This document shows positions 1,546 through 11,378 of a stretch of 33,231 nucleotides of DNA, piece after piece. Location: assembly GCA_945892755.1 (NCBI GenBank), contig CAMDDO010000034.1:1-33231 (forward strand), given 5' to 3'. The first letter of the stretch is position 1. Every line of letters starts with the position of its first letter. The notes below the pieces were generated by a model. That model was not told where the DNA came from. It saw only the letters and a list, made by a program, of their open reading frames with translations, and ran no database searches. Origin of the DNA: Rhizobium sp. Q54 (GTDB lineage Bacteria; Pseudomonadota; Alphaproteobacteria; UBA828). Made by a program: the position numbers and the translations under genes.

Positions 1546-1661
1546 GTACTGATCGGGAACGTCAAGAAAGTCGCGGCTTTCAGCAAATTCATAGAATCCA
1601 TTGTCTAATTTCTTGTCAGGTGCTAGCGTGATCACACCCCAAGCCGAACCGGAGGTTGACC

Positions 1662-3005
1662 ATGTCCGAGCGTTCCACCACCGCCCGCTATGAGAGCATG
1701 CCGAACGATCTCGAGCCCTATTGGATGGGCTTCACCCCGAACCGGCAATTCAAGAAGAAGCCGCGTCTGCTCGTGGCCGCCGAGGGCATGTATTACACGA
1801 CCGTCGATGGCCGTCAGATCATCGACGGCACGGCAGGCCTCTGGTGCGTCAATGCCGGCCATGCGCGGAAGGAAATCACCGAGGCGGTCTCGGCCCAGGT
1901 CGGGCGCATGGAATATGCGCCGGCGTTCCAGATGGGCCACCCGGCGGCGTTCGAGCTCGCCGCGCGTCTGGTGCAGATGCTGCCCGGCGATCTCGACCAT
2001 GCCTTCTTCACCAATTCGGGCTCCGAATCGGTCGACACCGCGCTCAAGATCGCACTGGCCTATCACCGCGTGCGCGGCGAAGGCACGCGCACCCGCTTGA
2101 TCGGGCGCGAGCGCGGCTACCACGGCGTCGGCTTCGGCGGTATCTCGGTCGGCGGCATGGTCGCCAACCGCAAATTTTTCGGCGCCATGCTGCCGGGCGT
2201 CGACCACATCCAGCACACCTATGATCGCGACAAGCAGGCGCATTCGCACGGCCAGCCCGAATGGGGCGCGCATCTGGCGGACGACCTCGAGCGTGTCGTC
2301 GCGCTGCACGATGCCTCGAACATCGCGGCAGTGATCGTGGAGCCGGTGGCGTGCTCGACCGGCGTGCTCGTGCCGCCCAAGGGCTATCTCGAAAAGCTCC
2401 GCGCGATTTGCGATAAGCACGGTATTCTTTTGATCTTCGACGAGGTGATCACCGGTTTCGGTCGGCTCGGCTCGAGCTTCGCGAGCGAGTATTTCGGCAT
2501 CGTGCCCGACCTGATGACGGTGGCGAAGGGCTTGACCAACGCGGCGATCCCGATGGGTGCGGTGTTCGCGCGCAAAAAGATCTACGACGCCTTCATGCAG
2601 GGGCCGGAGAACGCCATCGAGCTGTTCCATGGCTATACTTATTCGGGCCATCCGGTGGCCTGCGCGGCGGGTCATGCCGCGCTCGACATCTACCAGAAGG
2701 ACGGCCTGTTCGAGCGCGCGCGCGAGCTCTCGCCCTATTGGGAGAAGGCGATGCATTCGCTCAAGGGGGCCAGCAAGGTGATCGACACGCGCAATCTTGG
2801 CCTGATCGGCGCGATCGAGCTCGAGCCGATCGCGGGCAAGCCGACCGCGCGCGCGTTCGATGTGTTCCTGCGCTGCTACGAGAAGGGCGTGCTGATTCGC
2901 ACCACGGGCGACATCATCGCGCTCTCGCCGCCCTTGATCGTCGAGAAGAGCCATATCGATCGCATCGTCGAGACGATCGACGAATCGATCAAGGAGGCCG
3001 CCTAG
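1662..3005 (+). CDS. Omega-amino acid:pyruvate aminotransferase (beta-alanine transaminase type)
   Basis: A 447-residue class III PLP-dependent aminotransferase, full family length. It should move the amino group of beta-alanine or a similar omega-amino acid to pyruvate, giving malonate semialdehyde and L-alanine. Visible landmarks are the cofactor phosphate site (TNSGSESVDTALK), the IGRERGYHG motif, the FDEVITGFGR motif with the PLP-stacking Asp, and the PLP lysine at residue 289 in VAKGLTN. The ATG at 1662 has GGAG seven bases upstream; a TTG two codons earlier overlaps that site and is less likely. It is followed by alanine dehydrogenase and methylmalonate-semialdehyde dehydrogenase genes, which would recycle its alanine product and consume its aldehyde product. 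Taurine or putrescine as substrate cannot be excluded from sequence alone, but the context favours beta-alanine. Confidence 0.87.
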   Translation: MSERSTTARYESMPNDLEPYWMGFTPNRQFKKKPRLLVAAEGMYYTTVDGRQIIDGTAGLWCVNAGHARKEITEAVSAQVGRMEYAPAFQMGHPAAFELAARLVQMLPGDLDHAFFTNSGSESVDTALKIALAYHRVRGEGTRTRLIGRERGYHGVGFGGISVGGMVANRKFFGAMLPGVDHIQHTYDRDKQAHSHGQPEWGAHLADDLERVVALHDASNIAAVIVEPVACSTGVLVPPKGYLEKLRAICDKHGILLIFDEVITGFGRLGSSFASEYFGIVPDLMTVAKGLTNAAIPMGAVFARKKIYDAFMQGPENAIELFHGYTYSGHPVACAAGHAALDIYQKDGLFERARELSPYWEKAMHSLKGASKVIDTRNLGLIGAIELEPIAGKPTARAFDVFLRCYEKGVLIRTTGDIIALSPPLIVEKSHIDRIVETIDESIKEAA

Positions 3006-4363: not shown

Positions 4364-5863
4364 ATGATCAAATCCATCGGCCATTTCATCGGCGGCGCGC
4401 GCGTCGGCGGCACGAGCGGCCGCACGGGCGACATTTTCAACCCGGCGACCGGCGAGAAATCCGGCACGGTTGCCTTGGCCAGCGCGGCCGAACTCAACAA
4501 AGCGGTCGAACTCGCGCAGGCCGCCTGGCCGGCTTGGGCCGCGACGCCGCCTCTGCGCCGCGCGCGCGTGATCACGCGCTTCAGGGAAATCGCCGAGGCG
4601 CGCAAAGACGAGCTCGCCAAATTGATCGTCGATGAGCACGGAAAAGTCATGTCCGATGCGCTCGGCTCGATCCAACGCGGGCTCGAAGTGGTCGAATTCG
4701 CCTCTGGCATTCCGCATTTACTGCGCGGCGATTACACCGAACAGGTCGGTCCGGCGATCGATTCCTATTCGACGCGCCAGGCGTTGGGCGTGTGCGCCGG
4801 CATTACGCCGTTCAATTTTCCGGCCATGGTGCCGCTGTGGATGTTCCCACTCGCGATCGCGTGCGGCAATGCGTTCATTCTGAAGCCATCGGAGCGCGAC
4901 CCTTCGGCGCCAATGTTGCTCGCCGAGATCATGAAGGCGGCCGGCCTGCCCGACGGCATCTTGAGCGTGGTCAATGGCGACAAGGTGGCGGTGGACGCCA
5001 TCCTCAATCATCCGGGCATCGCCGCGGTCTCGTTCGTCGGCTCGACACCGATCGCGCACTACGTCTACTCAACCGGCTGCGCGGCGGGTAAGCGCGTGCA
5101 GGCCTTGGGCGGTGCTAAGAATCACATGGTCGTGCTGCCCGATGCCGATCTGGAGATGGCAACGGACGCGCTGGTCGGCGCGGCCTATGGCTCGGCCGGC
5201 GAGCGCTGCATGGCGGTCTCGGTTGCCGTGGCGGTGGGCGACAAGGTGGCGGATTCGCTAGTCAAGAGCTTGAAGCCCAAACTCGAGCGCATCAAGGTCG
5301 GCCCCGGCGCCGACCCGCAGGCCGAGATGGGCCCGCTCGTCACCAAGCAGCACTATGAGAAGGTCAAAGACTACATCGACACCGGCGTCACGGAAGGCGC
5401 CGAGCTCGTGATCGACGGTCGCGGCCTCAAGCTGCAGGGCTATGAGGGCGGCTATTTCATGGGGCCGTCATTGTTCGACCGCGTGACCAAGTCCATGCGC
5501 ATCTACAAGGAAGAGATCTTCGGGCCCGTGCTCTCGGTGGTACGCGCCAAGGATTATGAGCAGGCGGTTGCCCTTGTTAACGAGCATGAATACGGCAACG
5601 GCACCGCGATCTTCACGCGCGATGGCGATGCCGCGCGCGACTTCGCCAGCCGCATCAATATCGGCATGGTGGGGATCAACGTGCCGATCCCGGTGCCAGT
5701 CGCCTATCACTCGTTCGGCGGTTGGAAGCGATCGCTGTTCGGCGACCACGGCACGCATGGCATGGAAGGCGTGCGCTTCTATACGCGCCTCAAGACCGTG
5801 ACCAGCCGTTGGCCGACGGGCATCCGCAGCGGCGTGGATTTATCATTCCCCATGATGGGGTGA
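4364..5863 (+). CDS. mmsA: CoA-acylating methylmalonate/malonate-semialdehyde dehydrogenase
   Basis: A 499-residue aldehyde dehydrogenase of the MmsA family, which oxidises malonate or methylmalonate semialdehyde with NAD+ and CoA to acetyl-CoA or propionyl-CoA plus CO2. Diagnostic stretches are GITPFNFPAMVPLWMFP, the VGSTPIAHYVY segment, GGAKNHMVV, and the catalytic cysteine at residue 282 in SAGERCMAV. The family lacks the usual general-base Glu at the start of that active site, and here too the region reads ALGGAKN rather than an ELGGK form. AGGGAG precedes the ATG at 4364; an upstream in-frame ATG at 4319 lies inside the inverted repeat and is unlikely. It would finish both uracil (via malonate semialdehyde) and thymine (via methylmalonate semialdehyde) breakdown. 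Confidence 0.93.
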   Translation: MIKSIGHFIGGARVGGTSGRTGDIFNPATGEKSGTVALASAAELNKAVELAQAAWPAWAATPPLRRARVITRFREIAEARKDELAKLIVDEHGKVMSDALGSIQRGLEVVEFASGIPHLLRGDYTEQVGPAIDSYSTRQALGVCAGITPFNFPAMVPLWMFPLAIACGNAFILKPSERDPSAPMLLAEIMKAAGLPDGILSVVNGDKVAVDAILNHPGIAAVSFVGSTPIAHYVYSTGCAAGKRVQALGGAKNHMVVLPDADLEMATDALVGAAYGSAGERCMAVSVAVAVGDKVADSLVKSLKPKLERIKVGPGADPQAEMGPLVTKQHYEKVKDYIDTGVTEGAELVIDGRGLKLQGYEGGYFMGPSLFDRVTKSMRIYKEEIFGPVLSVVRAKDYEQAVALVNEHEYGNGTAIFTRDGDAARDFASRINIGMVGINVPIPVPVAYHSFGGWKRSLFGDHGTHGMEGVRFYTRLKTVTSRWPTGIRSGVDLSFPMMG

Positions 5864-5879: not shown

Positions 5880-5906
5880 AATTCCTCTCCCTCAGGGAGA
5901 GGAATT
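5880..5906. terminator. Bidirectional hairpin between convergent mmsA and mug
   Basis: A perfect 12-bp inverted repeat (AATTCCTCTCCC, loop TCA, GGGAGAGGAATT) begins 16 bases after the mmsA stop and covers the stop codon and last codons of the convergent mug gene. Its position suggests a two-way terminator or mRNA end, although no long T tract follows on either strand. Confidence 0.55.
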
Positions 5907-6413
5907 GGTCGCGAATTGCGCGAGCTCCCGCCACCATCGCTCGTCCCAAAACGATCCGGCGCGACCTGAGGGCGAGGTGAGCACGAAGAGGCGCGTCTCG
6001 CCGATCATCAGGTCTTGCAGGCCATAAGGCGGTGGCGCGCGGCCCGCTCCAAGCGCGCGCAACACGATGTGAGCCGGGCGCTTGGCGGTGAAGGCAAGCA
6101 CACGCGGCCGAAAGCGCTTGATCTTGCGCAGCAACCCCGGCACGTCGTCATAAGCGGGATCGAGATCGATGTCATTGCCGAAGCCGGTCTTGCAGAGATC
6201 GGTCAAGCCGATGCCGAATTCGAGCACGGCGCGAAACTCAGGCGGCGCGATCAGGCGCGGCGTGAGCCCAACCCGATGCAGCGTCGGCCAGAATTTATTG
6301 CCCGGCCCGGCATAATAGGCGCCGAGGCGCGCCGACTTAAACCCCGCCGCCGAGCCGCAGAACACCACATTGAGTCCCGGCACGAGCACATCGGGAAGGA
6401 TGTGTTGGGTCAT
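5892..6413 (-). CDS. mug: Mug/TDG-family mismatch-specific uracil-DNA glycosylase with altered motif 1
   Basis: A 173-residue protein that aligns without gaps over its first conserved block with E. coli Mug (VVFCG, then PGNKFW), the G:U/G:T mismatch-specific glycosylase family. The C-terminal motif region reads TSPSGRAG. In E. coli Mug motif 1 is GINPG, whose Asn activates water; here it is GSAAG, so the catalytic Asn is replaced by Ala. Motif 2 also lacks its first Asn (NPSG becomes SPSG). The protein may excise bases by another mechanism, have a different substrate, or be weak. It is convergent with mmsA, its 3' end lies in the shared hairpin, and it lies 126 bases downstream of rutR on the same strand. 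The fold family is clear; the activity is not. Confidence 0.8.
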   Translation of the reverse strand: MTQHILPDVLVPGLNVVFCGSAAGFKSARLGAYYAGPGNKFWPTLHRVGLTPRLIAPPEFRAVLEFGIGLTDLCKTGFGNDIDLDPAYDDVPGLLRKIKRFRPRVLAFTAKRPAHIVLRALGAGRAPPPYGLQDLMIGETRLFVLTSPSGRAGSFWDERWWRELAQFATNSSP

Positions 6414-6539: not shown

Positions 6540-7178
6540 TCACGGCTTCAAGCCAAGTCCTCTCAGCACGAGGGCGGAGACGGTTTCGCCCGCACGGTCA
6601 AAATCGCCTGAACCGAGTTTCTTTTTGCCGAGCACGGCTGCGATTTGACAGTCGAAATCGGCATAGGTTTGCGTTGCCGCCCAGAGCACGAAAAAGAGGT
6701 GATGCGGATCAACCGGCGCCAGCTTGCCCGCCGCGATCCACGCTTCGATCACCTTGGCCTTGTCATCGACCAGGCGCTTCATCGCGCCGCCGAGAAAACC
6801 TTTCACCGCCGGCGCGCCGTGCAGCAATTCATTGGCGAAGACCTTGGAGGCGAAGGGACGCTTCCGCGAATAGGTCATTTTGGCGTCGATATAGCGGCGG
6901 AGTGCGTCGGCCGGCTCGGCCTCGACCATGATCGAGGCGGTGGCATCGAGCCAAAGCGCCAAGATGTCATCCAATACGGCACGGTAGAGCGCCGCCTTGG
7001 TGCGAAAGTAATAATGCAGATTCGGCTTGGGGAGGCCAGCGCGAGCGGCGATCTCGGCGGTCGTTGCGCCGGAGAAGCCCTTGGTCGCGAACACCGCCTC
7101 GGCGGCTTGGAGGATTGTCGCCACGTTCTCGCGGCGGATCGCTTCTTTTCCGTTCTTGGGGTTCTTTGCCGCACTCAT
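6540..7178 (-). CDS. rutR: TetR-family repressor of the RutR type (pyrimidine-responsive)
   Basis: A 212-residue TetR-family regulator. The N-terminal HTH (about residues 22-65) contains TTAEIAARAGLPKPNLHYYF, and the C-terminal ligand domain carries RutR-like segments such as KLAPVDPHHLFF and ATQTYADFDCQ, very close to E. coli RutR, which binds uracil and thymine. The start at 7178 is chosen because longer versions would run through the intergenic operator; only a weak AGG is seen upstream. It is divergent from preT, and a RutR-consensus palindrome lies 50 bases from its own start and 49 bases from the preT start. I infer repression of preTA, and possibly itself, relieved by pyrimidines. Unlike in E. 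coli, no rut genes are near. Confidence 0.87.
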   Translation of the reverse strand: MSAAKNPKNGKEAIRRENVATILQAAEAVFATKGFSGATTAEIAARAGLPKPNLHYYFRTKAALYRAVLDDILALWLDATASIMVEAEPADALRRYIDAKMTYSRKRPFASKVFANELLHGAPAVKGFLGGAMKRLVDDKAKVIEAWIAAGKLAPVDPHHLFFVLWAATQTYADFDCQIAAVLGKKKLGSGDFDRAGETVSALVLRGLGLKP

Positions 7179-7228: not shown

Positions 7229-7244
7229 TTGACCATTTGGTCAG
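7229..7244. promoter_or_regulatory. RutR-type operator in the rutR-preT divergent region
   Basis: TTGACCATTTGGTCAG matches the published E. coli RutR consensus TTGACCA-NN-TGGTCAA at every defined base except the last. Its left half (TTGACC) could also serve as a -35 element toward preT, with a weak TAGGCT 18 bases on, so bound repressor would block the promoter. Assignment to the adjacent RutR-type protein rests on the consensus plus adjacency. Confidence 0.8.
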
Positions 7245-7293
7245 GATAGCACTAGGCTTCGATCTTGGCGAGCCCAAGCGGGGGAGCAGCGCG

Positions 7294-8655
7294 ATGAGCG
7301 GAGCAGACAACGAGGCACCGGACGTAAAGCCAGGGCGGCTGAACCCAAGCGCCTACGCCCATGTCTTCGATGACATCGGCCCACCACTGAGCCCGCGCGA
7401 AACATTGATCGAGGCGGCGCGCTGCCATTTTTGCCATGACGCGCCCTGCGTCGAGGCCTGCCCGACCGGCATCGACATCCCTTCCTTCATCGGCAAGATC
7501 CGCACCGGCAATCTCAAGGGCTCCGCCATCGATATTCTGTCCGCCAATATTTTCGGCGGCACCTGCGCGCGGGTCTGCCCTGTCGAGGAGTTGTGCGAGG
7601 AAGCCTGTGTGCGTACGACCGGCGAGAACAAGCCGGTCAAGATCGGCATGCTGCAACGCCATGCGGTCGATGCGTTGATGAAGGCCGGGCCGCAGCCCTT
7701 CACGCGCGCGGCCGATAGCGGCAAGACCGTCGCGATTGTGGGCGCGGGGCCGGCGGGTCTCGCTTGCGCGCACCGGCTCGCCATGCTCGGCCACAAGGTC
7801 GACGTCTATGAGGCGCGCGCCAAACCCGGCGGCCTCAACGAGCACGGTATCGCGGCCTATAAGGTGCCCGATATCTTCGCGCAAAAAGAAGTGGCGTGGC
7901 TGCTCGGCATTGGCGGCATCACGATCCACAACAACAAAGCGCTCGGGCGCAATGTGACGCTCGATGAATTGCGCAAAAAATATCCCGCAGTCTTTATCGG
8001 CGCCGGCTTGCAGGCGACGCAAAAACTCGGCCTTGAGGATGAGGCGCTTGAGGGCGTCGAGGATGCGGTCGGCTACATCGAGCGTCTGCGCCAGGCCGAG
8101 GATTTGTCCGCGCTGCCGGTCGGGCGGCGCGTCGTGGTGATCGGCGGCGGCAATACCGCAATCGATATCGCGATCCAATCGAAACGCCTAGGCGCGGAGG
8201 ATGTGACGCTCGCCTATCGGCGTGGGCCCGAGCAAATGGGCGCGACAGCGCATGAGCAGCACTTGGCACAAATCGAGGGCGTGAACCTCAAGCATTGGCT
8301 CGCGCCGGTCAGGCTGATTGGTTGGCGCGGCAAAGTGAAAGAGATCGAGTTCACCTATACGCGGCTCGACGACGCCGGCAAACTGGTCATGACCGAGGCG
8401 CGCACGCGGCTCTTGGCCGATCGGGTGTTCAAGGCGATCGGGCAGGTTCTGGTCAAAGACCCGTTCGATGGCAATGCGCGCGAACCGCTCGCGATCAAGA
8501 GCGGCAAGCTCGTGGTCAATGACGATCGCGAGACCTCGCTGCCCGGCGTCTATGCCGGCGGCGACTGCACCGCGACCGGTAGCGACCTCACCGTCCGCGC
8601 GGTCGAGGATGGCAAACGCGCCGCCATCGCGATCGACCGCCGGCTCCGTAGCTAG
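7294..8655 (+). CDS. preT: NAD-dependent dihydropyrimidine dehydrogenase subunit PreT
   Basis: A 453-residue flavin/iron-sulfur subunit that takes electrons from NAD(P)H and passes them to PreA for reduction of uracil and thymine. The N-terminal part carries cysteine clusters CHFCHDAPCVEACP and CARVCPVEELCEEAC for Fe-S centres. An FAD dinucleotide motif VGAGPAGLACAHRLA lies near residue 150, a second nucleotide motif IGGGNTAIDIA near 287, and the GGDCTATGSDL FAD-closing motif near the end. The start at 7294 follows GGGGGAG; a longer in-frame start at 7237 would begin inside the operator. Its stop is 10 bases before preA, so the two form one transcription unit. GltD-like subunits are relatives, but the partner gene settles the call. 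Confidence 0.92.
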   Translation: MSGADNEAPDVKPGRLNPSAYAHVFDDIGPPLSPRETLIEAARCHFCHDAPCVEACPTGIDIPSFIGKIRTGNLKGSAIDILSANIFGGTCARVCPVEELCEEACVRTTGENKPVKIGMLQRHAVDALMKAGPQPFTRAADSGKTVAIVGAGPAGLACAHRLAMLGHKVDVYEARAKPGGLNEHGIAAYKVPDIFAQKEVAWLLGIGGITIHNNKALGRNVTLDELRKKYPAVFIGAGLQATQKLGLEDEALEGVEDAVGYIERLRQAEDLSALPVGRRVVVIGGGNTAIDIAIQSKRLGAEDVTLAYRRGPEQMGATAHEQHLAQIEGVNLKHWLAPVRLIGWRGKVKEIEFTYTRLDDAGKLVMTEARTRLLADRVFKAIGQVLVKDPFDGNAREPLAIKSGKLVVNDDRETSLPGVYAGGDCTATGSDLTVRAVEDGKRAAIAIDRRLRS

Positions 8656-8665
8656 GGAGGCTCCC

Positions 8666-9952
8666 ATGGCCGATCTCCGTTGCACCATCGCCGGCGTCTC
8701 ATCGCCGAACCCGTTCTGGCTCGCCTCCGCGCCGCCGACCGACAAGGAATATAATGTCGTGCGCGCCTTCAAGGCGGGCTGGGGCGGCGTGGTCTGGAAA
8801 ACACTCGGCGAGGACCCGCCGATCGTCAACACCTGCTCGCGCTATGGCGCGATGTCGCTCAACGGGAGCCGCATGGTCGGCTTCAACAATATCGAGCTGA
8901 TCACCGACCGGCCGCTTGAGATCAACCTTCAGGAGATCAAGCGGGTCAGACGCGATTGGCCCGATCGCGCCATGGTGGTCTCGCTCATGGTGCCGTGCGA
9001 AGAAAAGAATTGGGCCGCGATCCTGAAGCGCGTGGAAGAAACCGACGCCGACGCGGTCGAGCTCAATTTCGGCTGCCCGCACGGCATGTCGGAGCGCGGC
9101 ATGGGCGCGGCGGTCGGTCAGGTGCCCGAGTACATCGAAATGGTCACGCGCTGGTGCAAGCAGCACTCGCGCATGCCGGTTTTCGTCAAGCTGACGCCGA
9201 ACGTGACCGACATTCTGAAGCCCGCGCGCGCGGCGAAGCAGGGCGGGGCGGACGCGGTGTCGCTGATCAACACCATCAATTCGATCATGGCGGTCAACCT
9301 CGATTCGATGGCGCCCGAGCCAGAGGTCGACGGCAAAGGCAGCCATGGCGGCTTTTGCGGACCGGCGGTTAAACCCATCGCGCTTCACATGGTGGCCGAA
9401 ATCGCGCGCAACGCTGATACACGCGGCCTGCCGATCTCAGGGATCGGCGGCATCTCGACCTGGCGCGATGCGGCCGAGTTCATCGCGCTCGGCTCGGGCA
9501 GCGTGCAGGTTTGCACCGCGGCGATGCATCATGGCTTCAAGATCGTCGAAGACATGGCCGATGGCCTATCGAATTGGATGGATCAGAAAGGCTATCGCGC
9601 GCTCGATGATTTCAAGGGCCGCGCCGCGCGGAACGTGAGCGACTGGAAGTTCCTCAACATGAACTTCAAGACGATCGCCGCGATCGACCAAGACTCCTGC
9701 ATCAAATGCGGGCTCTGCTACATCGCCTGCGAAGACACCTCGCACCAGGCGATCAGCAAATCACGCGATAACGGCCACCGGCGCTATGAGGTGATCGAGG
9801 ACGAGTGCGTCGGCTGCAATCTTTGCCTGCATGTCTGCCCGGTCGATCATTGCATCACCATGAAGCGGGTCGACCAGGGCTTGCCGTCGGTTGGGTGGGT
9901 CGATGATCCGAGGAATCCGCAACGCAGATCAGCGAATCCTTCCTCCGCTTGA
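8666..9952 (+). CDS. preA: NAD-dependent dihydropyrimidine dehydrogenase subunit PreA
   Basis: A 428-residue FMN and Fe-S subunit reducing the 5,6 double bond of uracil and thymine to the dihydro forms. The FMN barrel resembles dihydroorotate dehydrogenase and holds the catalytic Cys137 in NFGCPHGMSERGMG. The equivalent mammalian segment is NLSC; the Ser before the Cys is Gly here. Two 4Fe-4S motifs sit near the C-terminus: CIKCGLCYIAC and CVGCNLCLHVC. A GGGAGG ribosome binding site precedes the ATG. The last 20 or so residues (rich in Arg, Pro and Ser) reach into a region of palindromes and look like a non-conserved tail. Together with preT it should form the bacterial counterpart of the single-chain eukaryotic enzyme. 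Confidence 0.94.
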   Translation: MADLRCTIAGVSSPNPFWLASAPPTDKEYNVVRAFKAGWGGVVWKTLGEDPPIVNTCSRYGAMSLNGSRMVGFNNIELITDRPLEINLQEIKRVRRDWPDRAMVVSLMVPCEEKNWAAILKRVEETDADAVELNFGCPHGMSERGMGAAVGQVPEYIEMVTRWCKQHSRMPVFVKLTPNVTDILKPARAAKQGGADAVSLINTINSIMAVNLDSMAPEPEVDGKGSHGGFCGPAVKPIALHMVAEIARNADTRGLPISGIGGISTWRDAAEFIALGSGSVQVCTAAMHHGFKIVEDMADGLSNWMDQKGYRALDDFKGRAARNVSDWKFLNMNFKTIAAIDQDSCIKCGLCYIACEDTSHQAISKSRDNGHRRYEVIEDECVGCNLCLHVCPVDHCITMKRVDQGLPSVGWVDDPRNPQRRSANPSSA

Positions 9953-10121: not shown

Positions 10122-10130
10122 GCTATCTCG

Positions 10131-11378
10131 ATGGAGCCCGTGGTGCAGAACCTCAAAGTCAATGCCGACCGTCTCTGGGACTCGCTGATGGAGATGGCGA
10201 AGATCGGCGCGACGCCGAAGGGCGGCGTGTGCCGGCTCGCGCTCTCGGACGAGGACAAGGCGGCGCGCGATTTGTTCGTACGTTGGTGCAAGGAGGCCGG
10301 CTGCACCGTCAGCGTCGATGCCATGGGCAATATATTCGGCCGGCGCAAGGGCAAGAACGACAAGCTGCCGCCCATCATGTCGGGCAGCCATATCGACAGC
10401 CAGCCGACCGGCGGCAAGTTCGACGGCATCTATGGCGTGATGGCGGGCTTGGAGGTGATCCGCGCGCTGAACGACGCGGGCTTCGAGACCGAAGCGCCGA
10501 TCGAGGTGGTGTGCTGGACCAACGAGGAAGGCTCGCGCTTCGCCCCGGCGATGACCGCATCGGGCGTGTTCGCCGGCGAGTTCACGCTCGATTACGGCCT
10601 GTCGCGCCCCGACAAGGACGGCAAGACGCTCGGCGAGGAGCTGAGGCGCATTGGCTATGCGGGCGACATGGCCTGTGGCGGGCGCAAAGTGGGCGCGTTC
10701 TTCGAGGCCCATATCGAGCAGGGCCCGATTCTCGAGGCCGACAAAAAGACCATCGGCGTGGTGCAGGGCGTGCAGGGCATACGCTGGTACGAGCTCAACG
10801 TGACGGGCATGGAGGCCCATGCCGGCACCACGCCGATGCGCCGGCGGAAAGACGCCCTGGTTGGCGTCGCACGCATGGTGAGCGAGGCGCACCGCATCGG
10901 CATGGCGCAGCTACCCTTTGGCCGCTCGACCGTCGGCATGATGCAAGTGAAGCCCAATTCGCGGAACACGATTCCGGGTCACGTGTTTTTCACGGTCGAT
11001 CTCAGACACCCCGATGCCGAAACGCTGGTCGGCATGGGCAAGGCGTTTCAGCAAAGTTGCGAGGCGATCGCGCAGGAGACCGGCCTGACGCTCGATTTCA
11101 AGGAGATCTGGTATTCGCCGCCCGTGAAGTTCGACGCGGCCTGCGTGCGCGCGGTCGAGAATGCCGCGAGCAATCTCGGCATGGCGCATGAGCCGATCAT
11201 CTCGGGCGCGGGCCATGACGCGGTCTATCTCTCGCGCGTCGCACCGACCGCCATGGTGTTTATCCCGTGCGAAGACGGCATTTCGCACAACGAGATCGAG
11301 GCCGCGACCAAGACCGATTGCGGCGCCGGCGCGCAGGTTCTGCTACAGGCCATGGTCGAGCGCGCGAACGCTGCGTGA
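10131..11378 (+). CDS. Zn-dependent N-carbamoyl amino acid hydrolase, probably beta-ureidopropionase
   Basis: A 415-residue M20-family amidohydrolase of the hydantoinase/carbamoylase group, usual length. Metal-ligand segments are visible: SGSHIDSQPTGGKFDG with His87, TNEEGSRF, AHIEQGP, and the late SGAGHDA and ISHNE motifs. The dimerisation/lid segment includes GMEAHAGTTPM. The family covers N-carbamoyl-L-amino acid hydrolase, allantoate amidohydrolase and beta-ureidopropionase. Following preTA and near beta-alanine catabolic genes, I infer hydrolysis of N-carbamoyl-beta-alanine to beta-alanine, CO2 and ammonia. The start at 10131 is chosen by domain alignment; the AAAGGGG upstream serves as ribosome binding site but lies in a hairpin arm. 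A longer reading frame from 9891 would translate through three palindromes and is rejected. Confidence 0.85.
   Translation: MEPVVQNLKVNADRLWDSLMEMAKIGATPKGGVCRLALSDEDKAARDLFVRWCKEAGCTVSVDAMGNIFGRRKGKNDKLPPIMSGSHIDSQPTGGKFDGIYGVMAGLEVIRALNDAGFETEAPIEVVCWTNEEGSRFAPAMTASGVFAGEFTLDYGLSRPDKDGKTLGEELRRIGYAGDMACGGRKVGAFFEAHIEQGPILEADKKTIGVVQGVQGIRWYELNVTGMEAHAGTTPMRRRKDALVGVARMVSEAHRIGMAQLPFGRSTVGMMQVKPNSRNTIPGHVFFTVDLRHPDAETLVGMGKAFQQSCEAIAQETGLTLDFKEIWYSPPVKFDAACVRAVENAASNLGMAHEPIISGAGHDAVYLSRVAPTAMVFIPCEDGISHNEIEAATKTDCGAGAQVLLQAMVERANAA

Follow-up and report, generated by a model that had tools for sequence, protein, structure and literature searches.

The Escherichia coli RutR consensus is TTGACCANNTGGTCAA. 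The RutR box is a palindrome of about 16 bp, and uracil is contacted in the protein by W77, Y97, W167 and Q171, together with Q179 from the other subunit of the dimer (PMC10891134). The title of Hidese et al. (2012, J Biochem 152:341, cited in PMC7332683) names PydR of Pseudomonas putida, a RutR-like repressor acting on reductive catabolism. RegPrecise describes a predicted RutR regulon, under the heading of pyrimidine catabolism, in 68 genomes from 13 proteobacterial taxa, with taxon-specific changes of the motif (PMC5343134, 2016).

The locus presented here belongs to Rhizobium sp. Q54, and the whole stretch of 33,231 nucleotides that was analysed is called the window. At positions 7229–7244, the sequence TTGACCATTTGGTCAG agrees with TTGACCANNTGGTCAA at 13 of 14 defined bases, the sole mismatch being the last base. 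A prior sequence-only reading had described a site fitting the RutR consensus at all defined bases but one, in the short gap between the regulator gene and preT, and both points hold: the gap between the divergent rutR-like TetR gene and preT is 115 bp, and the box stands in its middle, the rutR-like start codon (7178, minus strand) being 50 bp away on one side and the preT ATG (7294) 49 bp away on the other. It is the top match to the consensus in the whole window, the runner-up having two mismatches and being located elsewhere. Among 20,000 gaps simulated with a Markov model, none contained a site with at most one mismatch, and two contained a site with at most two. A weight matrix was trained on 27 sites from other organisms, the window site being left out; it gave the box a score of 27.4, on par with the best training sites, and the second-best site of the window 14.8.

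The scan of the genome for the motif, which the same reading had proposed, was run on 3.27 Mb and returned four sites with at most one mismatch, the box included. The remaining three (on C25, C29 and C35) all lie within coding sequence of unrelated genes, which by translation are OmpA-like, CoA-transferase-like and acyl-CoA ligase-like, and they were rejected as further members of a regulon. A regulon beyond the box was rejected as well: near-matches to TGACC-N4-GGTCA occur, by estimate, at about chance frequency among the matches listed.

The gene on the rutR side (6540–7178, minus strand) encodes a RutR/PydR-like TetR regulator of 212 aa, as judged by Pfam, structure match and alignment. The protein passes the gathering scores of TetR_N (PF00440, 56.3 bits) and TetR_C_3 (PF08362, 176.5 bits), and among solved structures it is closest to E. 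coli RutR (E 9e-43; 195 residues aligned at about 40% identity). Each of the five uracil contacts is kept, as W76, Y96, W166, Q170 and Q178. Its score against the RutR equivalog model TIGR03613 is 193.5 bits, under the curated cut-off of 368, and we therefore call it RutR-like and not a certified RutR. The linkage to rutABCDEFG that goes with the equivalog was not found, the neighbours of the gene being preT and preA. As for RutR/YcdC-like TetR proteins, a palindromic site of about 16 bp, the predicted operator, is present in the divergent promoter gap; as for PydR, a RutR-like protein is encoded with dihydropyrimidine dehydrogenase genes, here divergently to preT-preA. No other full-length match to the RutR family is held by the genome.

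A Mug-like gene of the uracil-DNA glycosylase superfamily (5892–6413, minus strand) lies directly downstream of the rutR-like gene. This codirectional arrangement was seen in four genomes of two genera; elsewhere the Mug-like gene is found at L045 1734–2261, L046 10616–11326 and L049 1–502, and in L049 the rutR-like and Mug-like frames overlap by 4 bp. In such an arrangement, a uracil sensor may share its transcript with a repair enzyme that releases uracil.

On the other side of the gap, the plus strand carries preT (7294–8655; Fer4_20, which is dihydropyrimidine dehydrogenase domain II, and Pyr_redox_2), encoding the FAD/NAD(P)H and Fe-S subunit of dihydropyrimidine dehydrogenase, followed by preA for the catalytic subunit (8666–9952; NF006183 PreA, 712 bits versus a cut-off of 335). 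A hydantoinase/carbamoylase-family amidohydrolase (10128–11378, plus strand; TIGR01879, 438 bits versus 204), whose gene adjoins preA in many genomes, likely performs the N-carbamoyl-beta-alanine step. The window also encodes, on the plus strand, an omega-amino acid (beta-alanine):pyruvate transaminase (1656–3005; NF052567, 768 bits versus 500) and a (methyl)malonate-semialdehyde dehydrogenase for the pathway step after beta-alanine (4367–5863; TIGR01722, 705 bits versus 448.5), and an alanine dehydrogenase gene is also nearby. By their predicted functions, these genes cover most of the steps by which uracil is reductively converted to acetyl-CoA. A search for RutA at E≤1e-60 gave no match in the genome.

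The dihydropyrimidinase homologues map to different contigs and have no convincing box there, which makes the site at 7229–7244 look like a local switch with a single site in this genome. A candidate box at the dihydropyrimidinase gene of contig C9, the weak match TTGACCAGATGGCCGG (score 11.3), recurs in a sister genome, but was rejected: it lies inside an opposite-strand dehydrogenase-like coding sequence, and its conservation is therefore explained by protein coding. In the sister genome G002 (98% complete), preT/preA and the box are present; no orthologue of the C9-type dihydropyrimidinase was detected there, the best homologue being 39% identical.

Conservation of the box was examined in two samples. 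A search of named genomes, for which an alignment of RutR-like proteins served as query, gave 80 loci from Alpha-, Beta- and Gammaproteobacteria, many of which adjoin reductive-pathway genes and none of which adjoins rutA. At 27 of these 80 loci, the 400 bp preceding the rutR-like gene contain the core TTGACC-N4-GGTCAA with no more than one mismatch, versus 0.7% of control windows of the same loci; these are the 27 sites that trained the weight matrix. The second sample was drawn evenly from the class with preA as the query, which avoids selecting loci by similarity of the regulator. Here preA was found in 32 of 184 genomes, the window's own among them. In the stretch read, 18 of the 31 other preA clusters have a RutR-like gene, accompanied in 15 cases by a box; about 40% of the sampled clusters have neither a box nor a RutR-like gene in that stretch. 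High-scoring boxes lie almost exclusively upstream of Pyd or rutR genes (30 out of 31), in regions that make up 9.9% of the sampled sequence (p~2e-29, a value that overstates independence because the preA clusters are related).

Across many families of Alphaproteobacteria, the box is found between a rutR-like gene and preT or other Pyd genes. Within the window's genus it is retained with zero or one mismatch, and in the window's family cluster and box occur together only in that genus (three genomes). In the other sampled genera of the family, preT was absent and the box was missing at most RutR-like genes. That the palindrome arose by chance, or serves as a −35 element and nothing more, is exceedingly improbable: TTGACC does resemble a −35 hexamer, but the entire 16-bp palindrome, beyond TTGACC alone, is kept across families, whereas the flanks are not. 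We conclude that the box at 7229–7244 is a real and deeply conserved predicted operator.

Two variations on this layout were observed. Tandem boxes, 22–24 or about 34 bp apart, occur at L055, L075, L095, L236, L241 and L242, and may permit cooperative binding in those species; the box of the window is single. In Pyd clusters of the Burkholderia group (L098, L100, L101, L104, L125 and L132), a different palindrome, CTGTCC-N4-GGACAG, stands at the matching place, about 254–303 bp upstream of rutR. It likely reflects a change of operator specificity, and would fit the taxon-specific motif changes of RegPrecise.

The palindrome TTGACCANNTGGTCAA is also found with another TetR group. In L051, two perfect copies (8490–8505 and 8519–8534) lie between a TetR gene and a monooxygenase-like gene, and the TetR protein is not a RutR (25% identity), so that its binder cannot be told from the box alone. 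These copies at an unrelated TetR gene, and the simplicity of TGACC-N4-GGTCA with its near-chance estimate among the genomic matches listed, would be compatible with a box bound mainly by another TetR-family protein using the same common palindrome. We consider this very unlikely for the window, given that the pairing of box and rutR-like gene recurs at a matching position in many families and that a single full-length RutR-family protein is encoded in the genome.

Alignment of 84 boxes, read toward the enzyme genes, revealed a TAnnnT motif exactly 18 bp past TTGACC in 19 of them, 17 of which stand at preT, while every other offset was represented at most five times. Reading the same boxes in the rutR direction gave no peak of TAnnnT spacing. 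In the window, the first half-site of the operator, TTGACC (7229–7234, plus strand), is at this conserved spacing the predicted −35 hexamer of preT, and TAGGCT (7253–7258, plus strand), whose position is kept across families, is the predicted −10 hexamer. The operator thus likely contains the preT −35, a claim that rests on conservation, since a generic sigma-70 scan did not call the preT promoter. The single departure from the consensus lies at the far end of the box from the −35, which is a possible reason for this so-called mismatch. It is not a sign of decay, because a G at this position (a C when read from rutR) is a frequent natural variant, present in 48 of the 84 boxes, and because the identical 16-mer recurs in the corresponding position in other genera and families (L046, L054, L233, L234 and L242, the last three coming from the preA sample and from other families of the class).

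The sequence-only reading had proposed that a sensor of the oxidative Rut route was here rewired onto the reductive one. True rewiring in the window's lineage would mean that an E. coli-type RutR moved from Rut to the reductive pathway; it could be suspected because rut is under RutR in E. coli whereas the neighbour in the window is preT, and because preT is found, within the window's family, only in the window's genus. The distribution of the genes did not bear this out. In Pseudomonas and in many alpha- and betaproteobacteria, RutR-like genes have reductive-pathway genes as neighbours. RutA, not found in the window's genome, is rare in the class: it was detected in eight of 192 genomes at E≤1e-60, four of them over the cut-off, and no RutR-like gene was present within the stretch read at the alphaproteobacterial RutA loci. 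For another genome, G214, RutA was found in none of 276 genomes across its class at E≤1e-150, and in 12 of 149 genomes of its genus.

A tree of 100 proteins pointed the same way. All 12 rutA-linked RutRs, from E. coli and 11 genomes of the Pseudomonas group, fall in a single clade (support 100/99), nested inside a 31-protein clade (100/99) whose other 19 members are all Pyd-linked. The nesting was kept when the tree was rooted on three other TetR proteins, a very distant outgroup. The window protein and the Pyd-linked RutRs of Pseudomonas fall outside the clade that contains E. coli RutR, their mutual grouping being poorly resolved. Because the rutA-linked clade is nested, the pathway switch looks placed on the E. 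coli/Pseudomonas RutR branch; this direction is probable but not proven, since the outgroup is very distant and the sampling favours relatives of the window. Given this widespread Pyd linkage and the single nested clade of rutA-linked RutRs, a rewiring in the lineage of the window has very little to recommend it.

Several clusters of Rhodobacterales, Stappiaceae and Mesorhizobium contain two RutR-like genes, one on each side of the tree. Such two-RutR Pyd clusters (L090, L102, L114, L115, L121, L122 and L254), with one copy in the E. coli RutR clade, are a plausible source of the E. coli RutR type. On balance we lean towards a history in which RutR would be a Pyd regulator by origin, with its operator in the preT −35, and the rut circuit of E. 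coli a later capture from one of the two paralogues still present in Pyd clusters of Rhodobacterales, Stappiaceae and Mesorhizobium. The unusual wiring looks like that of E. coli, not that of the window.

The box is very probably the operator of the divergent RutR/PydR-like repressor, the unliganded dimer most likely blocking preT and uracil releasing it. The sequence-only reading had likewise held that the box would govern the reductive route, and the conserved context and pocket make this most likely correct. The ligand-free dimer would bind the palindrome and cover the −35 and the spacer, keeping RNA polymerase from the preT-preA-carbamoylase operon; such binding should block the polymerase because the TTGACC half-site is the predicted −35, with an 18-bp spacer to TAGGCT. 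A rise in uracil would place the ligand in the C-terminal pocket (W76, Y96, W166, Q170 and Q178'), the protein would leave the DNA, and reductive pyrimidine breakdown would then be expressed. By position, the dimer probably also affects rutR. In this scheme binding, repression and uracil as the ligand are inferred, with repression and the uracil response taken from what E. coli RutR does and from what the PydR paper announces in its title.

The same regulator might instead respond to a pathway intermediate, such as dihydrouracil, N-carbamoyl-beta-alanine or thymine. Its tie to another pathway than that of E. coli RutR, its position on the other side of the tree and its score under the RutR equivalog cut-off would suit such a ligand, but the five uracil contacts of E. 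coli RutR are all kept, the stacking tryptophans and the equivalents of Q171 and Q179 included, which makes an intermediate a rather unlikely choice. We retain uracil as the candidate ligand of the repressor. With one operator, one promoter and one candidate ligand, the locus offers a simple test bed; tight repression is predicted from the conserved overlap of operator and −35, and the promoter could be of practical use as a uracil-responsive promoter for alphaproteobacteria. More generally, the direction of the story is corrected: at least in Alphaproteobacteria, RutR-type control of the reductive route is apparently the common state, and the model RutR-rut circuit appears to be the exception.

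Compared with the closest described systems, the locus shares with E. coli RutR the protein family, the uracil pocket, the palindrome TTGACCANNTGGTCAA and the divergent layout of regulator and operon. It differs in that the target of E. coli RutR is the oxidative rutA-G operon, whose rutA/rutR operator has three mismatches to the consensus and is thus a poorer fit than the window box with its one, and in that the rutA-linked clade of E. coli RutR excludes the window protein. P. putida PydR, as far as the title of its description tells, is like the window regulator a RutR-like TetR protein tied to dihydropyrimidine dehydrogenase genes. Unlike the window, two Pseudomonas clusters have their RutR-like gene, about 44% identical and assumed here to be orthologous to that of P. 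putida PydR, 3' of preA and convergent, and they are without a box of this motif. The alphaproteobacterial RutR regulogs of RegPrecise reportedly list Pyd genes; the main text of that work names no RutR target genes (PMC5343134). The arrangement is widespread and known in outline from earlier work, and the present analysis makes two modest additions to it, the conserved overlap of operator and −35 and the evidence for the E. coli circuit as the derived one.
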